A DNA stretch of 51,603 bases from Bacilli bacterium (GTDB lineage Bacteria; Bacillota_I; Bacilli_A; RF39; UBA660): assembly GCA_017612805.1 (NCBI GenBank), contig JAGAFD010000001.1, positions 1 through 51,603 on the forward strand, written 5' to 3'. This document shows, one piece after another, positions 1 to 51,603 of the stretch. The stretch's first letter is position 1; every line of letters begins with the position of its first letter. The notes beneath the pieces were generated by a model. It saw only the letters and a program-made list of their open reading frames with translations. It was not told the DNA's origin and ran no database searches. The translations under genes were made by a program, and so were the position numbers.

Positions 1-14
1 CATCGGGTCTCGAC
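1..14 (+). repeat. 3' end of variable repeat (VR)
   Basis: CATCGGGTCTCGAC at 1-14 recurs exactly at 227-240. The two copies diverge immediately downstream (TTCTTAG here, CACTTAT there). This shared GC-richer block is where the initiation-of-mutagenic-homing region of a retroelement would lie. The variable part of the VR is to the left of the window. Confidence 0.75.
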
Positions 15-28
15 TTCTTAGATACTAG
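1..28 (+). CDS. 3' end of a retroelement target (variable) protein, partial
   Basis: The first 28 bases read as the last eight codons of a gene (I-G-S-R-L-L-R-Y then TAG at 26-28). The I-G-S-R stretch is identical to the end of the template repeat at 227-240. This is how the C-terminus of a diversity-generating-retroelement target protein with a C-type-lectin-like fold usually ends. The rest of the gene is outside the window, so function (adhesion or ligand binding is usual for the family) is inference. Confidence 0.7.
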
Positions 29-35
29 GTAAAGC

Positions 36-60
36 GGAGGTTTGGAGGTGGCCAACCTCC
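36..60. other. hairpin/cruciform just downstream of VR
   Basis: GGAGGTT (36-42) and AACCTCC (54-60) form a perfect 7-bp stem. It can be extended by GG (44-45) with CC (52-53) past a bulged T. It starts 8 nt after the target gene's stop codon and no T-run follows, so it is not a terminator. GC-rich cruciform hairpins at this place are known to promote target recognition in phage BPP-1-type retroelements. The role here is by analogy. Confidence 0.6.
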
Positions 61-123
61 ATAATAAAGAAAAAGATGGATGATATTTTTTAATAGGGAT
101 TTGGTATGTGGCCTAGGTGTTTT

Positions 124-240
124 AGCTTCTTTTGATTCCCCTTGTTGGTGGTAATATGAACAATGGAACTAATGCTGGTATATGGTATTGGAATTTGAAC
201 AATGGATCTAGTAATACGAACTATAACATCGGGTCTCGAC
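124..240 (+). repeat. template repeat (TR) of a diversity-generating retroelement
   Basis: The right boundary is fixed by the 14-bp match to the VR end; the left boundary is approximate. Read in the frame of the I-G-S-R end, 153-239 contains ten AAY (Asn) codons interleaved with G, W and Y codons, for example N-M-N-N-G-T-N-A-G and W-N-L-N-N-G-S-S-N-T-N-Y-N. Adenine-rich AAY codons are the signature of a template copied by an RT that mutates at A. No start codon or RBS serves this stretch and the frame is closed by TAG at 123-125, so it is best read as template RNA rather than a gene. Confidence 0.8.
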
Positions 241-368
241 CACTTATATATGTTTTTTCATTACATACCATTTTCCTTACCCCTTGGTAAAAATTAGTCG
301 TTCTGGGTTGGATTAGTAAAAAATTGAAAGTCCGATAGACAAATATAAGAATTAAAAAAGGACCAGAT
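241..368 (+). other. TR-RT spacer, probable structured part of the template RNA
   Basis: 128 nt with no credible ORF separate the TR from the reverse transcriptase. It holds a small hairpin (TTACC CCTT GGTAA near 277-290) and ends in the RT ribosome-binding site AAAAAGGA. In the BPP-1 system the equivalent spacer is part of the TR transcript and is needed for cDNA priming. That role is inferred from position only. Confidence 0.4.
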
Positions 369-1418
369 ATGAAAAGAATAGGATATATATTTGATAAAAT
401 AGTTGATATAAATAATATTGAGTTAGCAATTTATCATGCTTCAGCAGGGAAATCAAGGCGAAGAAGTGTTGATAAAATATTAGATAGTCCATCTTATTAT
501 GCTAAAGAAATACAGAATCTTTTACTTAACAAAGCATATAATCCGAGTCCATATGTTGAAATGATTATTCATGATGGAAATCACAAAAAAGAGAGAATTG
601 TTTATAAACCAGCCTTTTATCCAGACCAAGTAGTTCATTGGGCTTTAATGCAACAAATTGAGCCTATTTTAAGACGTGGAATGTATGATTGGTGTTGTGC
701 CTCTATTAAACATCGCGGATTACATTATGGCATGAAAAAAATTAAGAAAATATTGGTTGAAGATCGTAAAAATACTAAATATTGTTTAAAATTAGATATT
801 AGGAAGTTTTATCCTAGCATAAACAAAGAATGCCTTAAGAATAAGTTTGCTAATCTTATAAAAGACTGCGATACTTTATGGTTAATTAATGAAATAATTG
901 ATAGCGTTGATTCGGGAGTACCTATTGGAAATTATACTAGTCAATGGTTTGCCAATTTCTATTTGCAAGATTTAGACCATTATATTAAGGAAGATTTGAA
1001 AATTAAGTATTATATTCGATATATGGATGATATGGTTTTGTTTAGTAATAATAAAAAGAGATTACATCTTGCAAAAAAACAAATAAGTGACTTTATAGCT
1101 CATGACTACTTAAAACTAAAAGATAACTGGCAATTATTTAAAGTTGATTCTCGCCCTTTAGATTTTTTAGGTTATCGTTTTTATCGTGGCTATACAACTT
1201 TAAGAAGAGGTAATTTTTTGAGAATTAAAAGAAGAGTAAAAAAAGTCTATAAAAAAACTAAACTTAATTTTCATGACGCTAGTGCTATATTAAGTTATAA
1301 TGGCTGGTTGAAGCATGCCAATTCATATCACTATATTCATCGTTATATAAAGCCTTATATTGATTATGAATTGTGTAAAAATGTTGTAAGAGAAACAATT
1401 AAAACGATGGTGAATTAA
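369..1418 (+). CDS. diversity-generating retroelement reverse transcriptase
   Basis: A 349-residue reverse transcriptase, the usual length for the stand-alone RTs of diversity-generating retroelements. The catalytic Y-M-D-D is at residues 218-221. Block 4 reads I-G-N-Y-T-S-Q (186-192), the GxxxSQ form typical of this class, where group II intron RTs have QGxxxSP. No maturase or endonuclease domain follows. The basic C-terminal region resembles the thumb of such RTs. It would copy the template RNA at 124-240 into A-mutagenised cDNA that replaces the VR ending at base 14. No accessory avd gene is seen between TR and RT or downstream; it could lie to the left. The start is supported by AAGGA 9 nt upstream. 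Confidence 0.9.
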   Translation: MKRIGYIFDKIVDINNIELAIYHASAGKSRRRSVDKILDSPSYYAKEIQNLLLNKAYNPSPYVEMIIHDGNHKKERIVYKPAFYPDQVVHWALMQQIEPILRRGMYDWCCASIKHRGLHYGMKKIKKILVEDRKNTKYCLKLDIRKFYPSINKECLKNKFANLIKDCDTLWLINEIIDSVDSGVPIGNYTSQWFANFYLQDLDHYIKEDLKIKYYIRYMDDMVLFSNNKKRLHLAKKQISDFIAHDYLKLKDNWQLFKVDSRPLDFLGYRFYRGYTTLRRGNFLRIKRRVKKVYKKTKLNFHDASAILSYNGWLKHANSYHYIHRYIKPYIDYELCKNVVRETIKTMVN

Positions 1419-1441: not shown

Positions 1442-1469
1442 AACTAACTATTTATTAGTTAGTTTTTTT
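1442..1469 (+). terminator. terminator after the RT gene
   Basis: AACTAACTA (1442-1450) and TAGTTAGTT (1456-1464) form a 9-bp stem with loop TTTAT, followed by T5. A TATAAT box at 1474-1479 follows within 5 nt of the T-tract. Confidence 0.85.
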
Positions 1470-1473
1470 GTTA

Positions 1474-1479
1474 TATAAT
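1474..1479 (+). promoter_or_regulatory. -10 box for the ATP-grasp gene
   Basis: TATAAT sits 5 nt after the RT terminator and about 16 nt before the start codon. No convincing -35 can be made out because that position falls inside the terminator hairpin. Confidence 0.5.
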
Positions 1480-1495
1480 AAAAGTGGTGATGATA

Positions 1496-2494
1496 ATGGC
1501 TTTTTATAGTTATATATTTACGGCAAATTATAAGAGATTTAGCAAAAATTTAAAAATGGTTAGTAAAAAATATCATAAGAGTTATATTGGTATGATGTTT
1601 GACACTGTATATTCAGTTAAAAAATATGGTATTGGATTAACGGATTATTTAAACTATCAATTCTATTTAAAAAGTAAAGCAGAACGTAAGGAGTATGCCG
1701 GAATTAAAATTCAAAATACTTTCTATGAAACGGTATCGCCAAGTGCTTATAAAGAACGTTATACAATTAAACCAAGTTTCTTAAAAGAATTTAGTACTTA
1801 TACTAAAAGAGCTTTTTTAGTTCCTGATGGAAATAATAAAGATGAGTTTATGAAATATATTAAGGGTAAAGATTATTTCATGTCTAAACCATATGATGGT
1901 TTAGGTGGGGCTGATGTTTCAAAAGTTAATGTTAAAGAAATTAAGAATTTAAATGAATATTACAAATATATATGTGATAACCATTTATTCTTAGAAGATT
2001 TAGTAATTCAACATGAAGATTTAAATAAATTATGTGCAACTTCAGTAAATACGATTCGTATTATGACTTTTAATGATCATGGAAAGCCAAGAATTTTATG
2101 GGCTGGTCTTCGTATTGGTAATGGGGTTAATAGTGTTGATAATTTCCATGCTGGTGGCATGGCATCGCCAATTGATTTAGAAAAAGGAACTTTAATAAAT
2201 AAAGCGGTAGATAAAGATTTAAATGAATATGAATATCATCCTAAAACTAATACTAAAATTGTAGGTTTTAAAGTCCCATATTTTAAAGAAGTAAAAGAAT
2301 TAGTTTTAAAAGCTAGTTTAGAATCCGATAAGATATTGGTAGTTGGTTGGGATGTTGCAGTAACCCCAACAGGACCTGTTATTATTGAAGGTAATCGAAG
2401 ACCTGGCTTTGATGTTGTTCAAGTTGCTGATCGTCGTGGCCGTATGGATATCATTCGCGATGTTTTAGGAAGTATTAACAATGAAAAAAAATAA
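1496..2494 (+). CDS. ATP-grasp enzyme of the sugar-transfer-associated type
   Basis: About 332 residues. The C-terminal two thirds have the ATP-grasp pattern seen in proteins often found with polysaccharide genes. Visible blocks are K-P-Y-D-G-L-G-G, a Gly-containing nucleotide loop; S-V-N-T-I-R-I-M-T; N-F-H-A-G-G-M; G-W-D-V-A-V-T-P-T-G-P; and the metal-binding I-I-E-G-N-R-R-P-G-F-D. The family ligates a carboxylate to an amine or similar acceptor using ATP; the substrate is unknown here. I chose ATG 1496 because GGTGAT (1486-1491) is its Shine-Dalgarno; upstream in-frame GTG/ATG codons fall within that signal. The next gene overlaps the 3' end by 14 nt, so the two are probably translationally coupled. 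Confidence 0.75.
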   Translation: MAFYSYIFTANYKRFSKNLKMVSKKYHKSYIGMMFDTVYSVKKYGIGLTDYLNYQFYLKSKAERKEYAGIKIQNTFYETVSPSAYKERYTIKPSFLKEFSTYTKRAFLVPDGNNKDEFMKYIKGKDYFMSKPYDGLGGADVSKVNVKEIKNLNEYYKYICDNHLFLEDLVIQHEDLNKLCATSVNTIRIMTFNDHGKPRILWAGLRIGNGVNSVDNFHAGGMASPIDLEKGTLINKAVDKDLNEYEYHPKTNTKIVGFKVPYFKEVKELVLKASLESDKILVVGWDVAVTPTGPVIIEGNRRPGFDVVQVADRRGRMDIIRDVLGSINNEKK

Positions 2495-3116
2495 ATTTAG
2501 TATTACCGGAATAGCGTTAATAATCTTTTTGCTAATAAGTTTTTTATTAACATTATTACGTTATCAATTTATCGGCAATAACATTGTTGTCTTAAGTGGC
2601 TTAAATATCGTTATTTTTAGTAGGTTAGTGAGTATTTTATATTTCATATTTAATTTTATTTTAAATAATGGTATTTACTTTTTATTAATTATCTATATTA
2701 TTTTAAATATGTTAATTAAAAACGAAAAAGCGATGATGGCTATTAGAATTATTATATTTTTACTAATGGGTGGATTCCTAATATATCTTTTTGTTTCGGA
2801 TATTGTTACGTTAATTAATCTATTTGGTACAAGTTATCTATTTATGATAGGTATTATTAATGTTTTGTTAATGATTGCTAATTTAATGATTATGTTATCA
2901 ATCATGATTTATATTATTAATAGTATTCCTAATGGTAGATTATTATATTTTATCAATACCGTTTTAATGGCTGCTTTTATAGTGTTGTCACTACTTTGTA
3001 ATATTGCCTTATTATTCTTATCAACATTTAATTTCTATTTAATAGTAAGTATTTTATACACAATGGTTATTTTAGTAGTCCGTATTTTAATACCACTATA
3101 TTTTTATCATAATTAA
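2481..3116 (+). CDS. polytopic membrane protein of unknown function
   Basis: 211 residues, almost entirely Ile/Leu/Phe/Val, with roughly five or six predicted membrane spans (about residues 8-28, 40-62, 64-78, 87-108, 118-145, 155-180, 185-208) and few charged residues between them. No motif is recognised. It overlaps the end of the ATP-grasp gene and is probably cotranscribed with it, so a role in the same cell-envelope process is possible. It is closed by its own terminator. Confidence 0.6.
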   Translation: MKKNKFSITGIALIIFLLISFLLTLLRYQFIGNNIVVLSGLNIVIFSRLVSILYFIFNFILNNGIYFLLIIYIILNMLIKNEKAMMAIRIIIFLLMGGFLIYLFVSDIVTLINLFGTSYLFMIGIINVLLMIANLMIMLSIMIYIINSIPNGRLLYFINTVLMAAFIVLSLLCNIALLFLSTFNFYLIVSILYTMVILVVRILIPLYFYHN

Positions 3117-6735: not shown

Positions 6736-7251
6736 ATGGATAGAGCCAAGAATATTATTGTTTTAGATTTTGTTTTATTAATTGGAAGTTTATTAATTAT
6801 TTTATGCCCATTATTAAAAATAACCGAGATTAATTATATATTACTTTCAATGTTCTTGCTATATGGTTACATTAGTTCATTTAAATTTTTACTAAGAAGA
6901 AATTACCGTGATTTTGAATCACTATATACTTCGATGGCGGCTTTATCTTTTAGTGCAATATTATTCTTTACTAATCTTAATACTAATAAAAGTTTAGCTT
7001 TATTTATTCTTATCTGGTCTTTTGTATTAGCAATTATTAAATTAATTAAATGTGATTATTATCATGATTTAAAAAATCCATTATGGATGAGTAAGATGAT
7101 GAATCTAGTATTATTCTTAATTACTGGTTTTATTTCATCAATTAATTTTAATAGTGGTAACACCGTATCTATTATTGTAATTGGCTATTTCTTTTTAATT
7201 AACTTTATAGTAGAATTAATGCATGATGTTTTTGAAATGATTAGAGGTTAA
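6736..7251 (+). CDS. small polytopic membrane protein, DUF308-like
   Basis: About 171 residues in six hydrophobic segments arranged as pairs, with short polar loops, reminiscent of HdeD/DUF308 membrane proteins. No catalytic residues are seen. The start is ambiguous: GTG 6727 (three residues longer) or ATG 6736. The ATG is better spaced from AGGATG. The gene ends 2 nt before the methyltransferase start, so the two form an operon. Confidence 0.6.
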   Translation: MDRAKNIIVLDFVLLIGSLLIILCPLLKITEINYILLSMFLLYGYISSFKFLLRRNYRDFESLYTSMAALSFSAILFFTNLNTNKSLALFILIWSFVLAIIKLIKCDYYHDLKNPLWMSKMMNLVLFLITGFISSINFNSGNTVSIIVIGYFFLINFIVELMHDVFEMIRG

Positions 7252-50794: not shown

Positions 50795-51550
50795 ATGTGT
50801 GCTGTTTTAGAAATAAGTAAAAGAACTTACTATAAATATAGGAATGCTGAAGATAAAGATTATTATGATTATTTAATAATAAAAGAAATCTTTGATGAGT
50901 CTAAAGGTACATATGGGTATCGAAGGATAACTGAAGGCTTGAAGATTAAATATGGTGTAATATTTAATCATAAAAAAGTGCAAAGAATAATGAATAAATA
51001 TCATATGATGCCAAAGTATCATAAAATATTAAACACAACTAAATATAAAAGAATTGAATCAAATGTAATGCCTAATTTAATAAAAAGGAATTTTACTGCA
51101 ACCAGACCAAATCAAAAATGGACAACCGACATAACATACTTAATTTATAAAGATAAAAGATTATATCTATCAACAATCTTGGATTTATATGATAGAAAGG
51201 TTGTTGCTTATCAAATATCAAAATTTAATGATATAAATATTGTTATAAATACATTAAATGAAGCAATAGCAAAAAGAAAAGATGTATCTGGTTTAATCCT
51301 ACATAGTGATCAAGGATTCCAATATACATCTTATGAATACAAAGCTATCTGCAAATCAAATAATATTCAAATCTCTATGTCAAGAAAAGGAACTCCAATA
51401 GATGATTCACCAATGGAATCTTTTCATGGAATATTAAAGAAAGAAACTTTGTATAATAATGAAATATCTTCGATACAAGAATATCAAGCACTTGTTGAAG
51501 ATTGGATATTATTTTACAACACTTCTAGAATAAAATCAAAAAAGACTTAG
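50795..51550 (+). CDS. IS3-family transposase OrfB (DDE recombinase)
   Basis: 251 residues from ATG 50795. The frame is open upstream to the slip site (50744-50750), reading R-E-K-V-T-F-I-N-L-Y before this Met, so the natural product is an OrfAB fusion by -1 frameshifting. DDE residues are D (T-T-D-I-T-Y-L, about 111), D172 (H-S-D-Q-G) and E208 (S-P-M-E-S-F-H), with 35 residues between the last two as usual; K-K-E follows. Intact, so the element may be active. No RBS of its own is seen. Confidence 0.93.
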   Translation: MCAVLEISKRTYYKYRNAEDKDYYDYLIIKEIFDESKGTYGYRRITEGLKIKYGVIFNHKKVQRIMNKYHMMPKYHKILNTTKYKRIESNVMPNLIKRNFTATRPNQKWTTDITYLIYKDKRLYLSTILDLYDRKVVAYQISKFNDINIVINTLNEAIAKRKDVSGLILHSDQGFQYTSYEYKAICKSNNIQISMSRKGTPIDDSPMESFHGILKKETLYNNEISSIQEYQALVEDWILFYNTSRIKSKKT

Positions 51551-51575
51551 AATATTTTCTAAATCTTCTTTTTAT
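51543..51575 (+). terminator. possible terminator of the IS transposase genes
   Basis: AAGACTTAGAA and TTCTAAATCTT (about 51543-51568) form an 11-bp stem with one mismatch, loop TATT, followed by a T-rich tract. Confidence 0.55.
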
Positions 51576-51603
51576 TATTGTGAACTATTTGGGGTTCACT
51601 TCA

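Follow-up and report, generated by a model that had tools for sequence, protein, structure and literature searches.

A compact diversity-generating retroelement with an RT-18 spacer RNA, apparently lacking Avd, at the end of a contig

The first 1.4 kb of the stretch of DNA analysed here (the window, a whole contig of 51,603 bp from a bin of 1.05 Mb in 10 contigs) carry a diversity-generating retroelement (DGR), a system in which error-prone reverse transcription alters a section of a single protein. We are highly confident that bases 1-1418 are the right half of a compact DGR that apparently works without the Avd protein. The element is a genuine DGR of a known kind, cut by the contig end: base 1 is the true start of the contig and falls within the variable repeat (VR). 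On the plus strand, the end of the target gene, a hairpin, the template repeat (TR), a structured RNA and the reverse transcriptase (RT) gene follow each other in this order. A preliminary description had proposed the right half of a DGR and this has held up, as the visible parts fit and the same layout, together with TR/VR mismatches confined to adenines, is present in about a hundred related loci.

Structure of the truncated cassette

The target gene is represented by its 3' end (1-27, plus strand, read directly as ...IGSRLLRY with the stop TAG at 25-27), and its C terminus resembles that of a host paralog and of the targets of relatives. The 3' end of the VR (IMH, 1-14) is the same as the 3' end of the TR (IMH*, 227-240). 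This 14-bp block, CATCGGGTCTCGAC, had been noticed at base 1 and base 227; it is indeed exact and, allowing up to one mismatch, has no third site in the 1.05-Mb genome, with zero matches for the reversed-pattern control. The VR remnant here amounts to these 14 bp and contains a single template adenine, not counting the last A. The idea that population variation made the contig start just after a mutated adenine was rejected: the preceding TR base is an A in the window and in one relative, and is not an A in five other contigs cut inside the VR. A hairpin or cruciform (36-60, plus strand, inner stem GGAGGT-GGCCA-ACCTCC at 44-60) lies downstream of the VR, starting 8 nt past the target stop as had been described, and similar hairpins are found in related loci. 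The window therefore has both the IMH/IMH* at the 3' ends of the repeats and the hairpin after the VR, which are hallmarks of DGRs. The TR itself had been drawn as an adenine-rich repeat at 124-240 with ten AAY codons. The ten AAY codons are there in the TR frame, but 34 A in 117 bases is not strikingly A-rich, and the alignment with the TRs of relatives moves the 5' limit nearer to 136 (TR approximately 136-240, plus strand).

The RT gene (369-1418, plus strand) encodes 349 aa and was recognized by Pfam (RVT_1) and PHROG (reverse transcriptase). The GxxxSQ-type motif attributed to it previously was recovered as IGNYTSQ (924-944), accompanied by YMDD (1020-1031). Its best sequence match in the PDB (E 9e-30) is 8ub7_A, labelled in the file just as 'Reverse transcriptase', which we take to be the ribonucleoprotein of the BPP-1 DGR. 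The identity to the Brt of BPP-1 is 31% over 68% of the query, and the closest RT in the phage collection is that of Lactobacillus phage LBR48 (50% identity). Motifs and nearest known matches thus point to an RT of the DGR type. It also matches DRT, retron and intron models, and the RNA upstream of it carries in Rfam just the name RT-18, as might be expected if this were another RT system (a retron, a group II intron or a defence-type DRT) preceded by a non-coding RNA, and the repeat a product of chance. We consider this very improbable: all the matches are far below the curated cut-offs (80 bits against 300 for TIGR04416, 62 against 235 for retron_St85), so that the RT reaches the curated family cut-off for neither a retron nor a group II intron, 8ub7 is far ahead of the intron RTs, and relatives at 34-71% identity have TR/VR pairs whose mismatches are adenine-confined.

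To the right of the cassette, a terminator-like inverted repeat with a T run (1442-1470, plus strand) marks the start of the similarity to a DGR-less genome of the same genus (G001), and is followed by the host genes ATP-grasp and Tex, with a 211-aa ORF without Pfam match between the two. At the right end of the window (ca. 51463-51603), 140-141 bp are common to the ends of contigs C6, C7 and C9; this repeat, probably an insertion sequence, broke the assembly. On the left side, no fitting VR or target end was found among the contig ends of the bin (one start masked), and the 5' part of the target gene is not among its contigs. The left-flank gene of G001 gave no match in the bin either, in a search run without a positive control, and degenerate VR and spacer patterns retrieved nothing from viral contigs.

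Adenine-confined variation in related loci

Related loci were drawn from GTDB genomes and IMG/VR, and a pair-scoring script found a good TR/VR pair in 106 loci with a related RT. Over these loci, 1,627 of 1,663 mismatches fall at template adenines, although A makes up 25% of the TR bases, a proportion to be read knowing that both the tolerance of the script to mismatches at A and an 85%-at-A filter favour such pairs. More than half of the template adenines (55%) are changed. The bias is directional, since the same loci score lower when the VR is taken as the template, with almost zero mismatches at A. A hairpin after the VR is present in 68% of the 106 loci against 3% of shuffles, and its loop is GRYCA in 35 of 93, close to the GRNA hairpin loops reported for phage DGRs (PMC3240598).

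The spacer RNA, the helix around the template and Avd

Between the TR and the RT gene lies a structured RNA (273-350, plus strand) that was overlooked in the preliminary description, as was the helix described below. Rfam family RF03021 (RT-18) matches it over its full length at 278-349 with 61 bits, above the gathering score, and it was also found in 13 of 20 related loci scanned, always just upstream of the RT. Our own covariance model, R1, was built from 24 spacers and covers 273-350, including helices 278-281/286-289, 297-299/338-340 and 307-313/330-336. In its seed 87% of the pairs are standard, and the 104 double-change cells exceed those of shuffles (34), a value that no shuffle out of 500 attained. 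R1 matched 63 of 69 further viral loci, where 48 distinct rows, in an alignment fitted to the structure, give 248 such cells and 85 in shuffles. Of the 87 loci outside the seed that have a TR/VR pair, 80 carry the RNA between the end of the TR and the start of the RT and none carries it elsewhere; seven gave no match. This location between TR and RT links RT-18 to DGRs. Most simply, RT-18 would be the spacer RNA used by this branch of DGRs, and a family whose Rfam name and entry state no function would gain a likely one. R1 can also flag such DGRs even when the VR has been lost at a contig end. In L038 the R1 match (6793-6868) is downstream of the RT and not upstream. A more distant RT locus (L012, 1196-1344, minus strand) matches another Rfam RT family, RT-14, with 107 bits, and may thus belong to a separate branch of RTs.

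A second element, helix P0, brackets the TR by pairing the flank 5' of it (95-111, plus strand, AGGGATTTGGTATGTGG) with the segment between TR and RNA (261-277, plus strand, TTACATACCATTTTCCT). Over 89 related, and hence non-independent, loci the best stem has a median score of 10.5, compared with 7.5 for stems of swapped loci. When the arms were placed by reference to the RNA model, in 64 distinct but still related loci, the medians are 27.3 for own pairs and 15.0 for swapped ones, own pairs exceeding 91% of the swapped. At least four pair types occur at several positions (a count biased towards pairing, since the best-pairing arms were selected), while position 4 is a nearly fixed G-U and positions 6-7 are unpaired in many loci. 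The minimum-energy fold of 90-352 includes P0, with a total energy that is not below that of shuffles. As far as the literature searched shows, both the tie between RT-18 and DGRs and the presence, in this branch, of a covarying helix that brackets the TR are new, but an earlier account is possible.

The DGR of Bordetella phage BPP-1 (mtd, avd, TR, brt) resembles that of the window in the VR-TR-RT order on one strand, the hairpin after the VR, a structured spacer RNA between TR and RT and a related RT. It even has a 16-bp stem between avd and the spacer that resembles P0. The differences are in the RNA and in Avd. The BPP-1 spacer belongs to the Rfam family Phage_DGR and has no R1 match, and avd is located between VR and TR, where the window has a gap of ca. 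110 bp without a gene. Handa et al. in 2025 reportedly described flanking RNA that encloses the BPP-1 RT. The spacer of this phage recruits bRT-Avd and provides the priming adenine, and synthesis halts at a motif located where avd ends (PMC12875486). The RT locus of Lactobacillus phage LBR48 is like the window in having an R1 match upstream of the RT, but it belongs to a phage, with holin and lysozyme genes nearby, whereas host genes follow the RT of the window. In Treponema denticola there are non-phage DGRs with surface-directed targets, some of them distant from the RT (PMC4891356). These have an HRDC accessory gene between TR and RT, a gap filled in the window by the RNA alone.

The Avd profiles PF05635 and PF22296 had zero matches in the bin; PF22296 detects the Avd of BPP-1, used as a positive control, and PF05635 by itself is insufficient. 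The left contig, absent from the bin, lies outside this search and could hold an Avd gene. In close relatives neither the VR-TR nor the TR-RT gap could accommodate one. Several genomes with related DGRs do carry an Avd-like gene somewhere, which in some of them may lie near the RT-18 cassette. The DGR of the window thus appears to be without its usual helper protein, and P0 provides a testable prediction on how the template is delimited where Avd is not found.

The way in which the element would work can be sketched from the relatives and the BPP-1 model. TR and spacer would be transcribed together, and in the folded transcript P0 would hold the TR as a closed loop beside the RT-18 domain. The RT would bind this folded RNA and copy it into cDNA from the 3' end of the TR onwards, misincorporating opposite adenines. 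The upstream target gene would then receive this cDNA in place of the VR at its 3' end, a step assisted by the match between IMH and IMH* and by the hairpin that follows the stop. The element is presumed to be active in this organism.

The target protein and its owner

What is diversified, and for whom, is a separate question from the mechanism. The cassette might lie at the right-hand boundary of a prophage, with a phage tail protein as its target, a serious contender to which we give slightly less than an even chance. Many relatives come from IMG/VR contigs and most related targets resemble phage tail proteins; Pfam phage tail domains were matched by three of the six that were tested, in one case below the cut-off. 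Also in favour, an N-terminal membrane segment was found by a hydropathy script in none of 90 related targets. Pulling in the other direction, host genes come directly after the RT in the window, and the bin contains membrane-anchored paralogs with the DGR-target domain, one of which narrowly misses the Pfam cut-off for camelysin and ends in GSRLLRY* like the target of the window. The target next to the RT in a genome of the same family (G027) is anchored by a pilin segment with its N-methylation motif. A host surface protein is therefore a plausible target, and between this and a prophage tail protein the chances are about even. If the host owns it, a cell of ca. 1 Mb keeps a dedicated protein-diversifying machine.

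The structure of one related target, modelled from 21 aligned sequences, has TaqVP, a DGR variable protein, as its sole significant match. With a weak model (pLDDT 62) we take this match as secondary support.

The G027 locus (L212, contig C8), set among host genes, contains the R1 RNA and a TR, but its RT is frameshifted and its DGR degenerate. Such decay does then occur in the lineage, and the DGR of the window could likewise be decaying or inactive, with its parts in place and the target no longer diversified. We regard this as unlikely, given that the RT of the window is intact with its motifs, IMH equals IMH*, and the spacer pairs, P0 and the hairpin have been kept.

A broader and more tentative scenario, which we hold at somewhat below the prophage reading, is that DGRs of the RT-18 type make up a large branch without Avd, where the folded RNA and the TR-closing helix replace the spacer RNA and Avd of BPP-1, and that the element might now be chromosomal in a reduced-genome lineage, where it would diversify membrane-anchored surface proteins.

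The genome of the window has three membrane-anchored paralogs with the target domain (L186, L199 and L215, on contigs C5 and C9), one of them split across two contigs with a 141-bp overlap, adjacent to SpoIIGA and a sigma factor. These two genes, on contig C9, are also what can be said for the earlier characterization of the bacterium as sporulating, which they back in part. Diversification of the host paralogs by the TR of the window was rejected, there being no adenine-only match. In place of the DGR, G001 has a membrane-anchored Gly-rich gene of 679 aa, with similarity to the window from 1442 onwards; in the comparison of this locus (L255, contig C35) with window positions 1442-2505, a similar terminator and leader flank the gene on both sides. 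Another genome, G225, in whose assembly neither an RT nor the R1 RNA was found, has about ten paralogs on many short contigs (L218, L223, L226, L227, L229, L230, L233, L234 and L236), with variable C termini resembling DGR targets. Several of them have a type-IV-pilin-like N terminus, and two carry a DGR-like hairpin past the stop.
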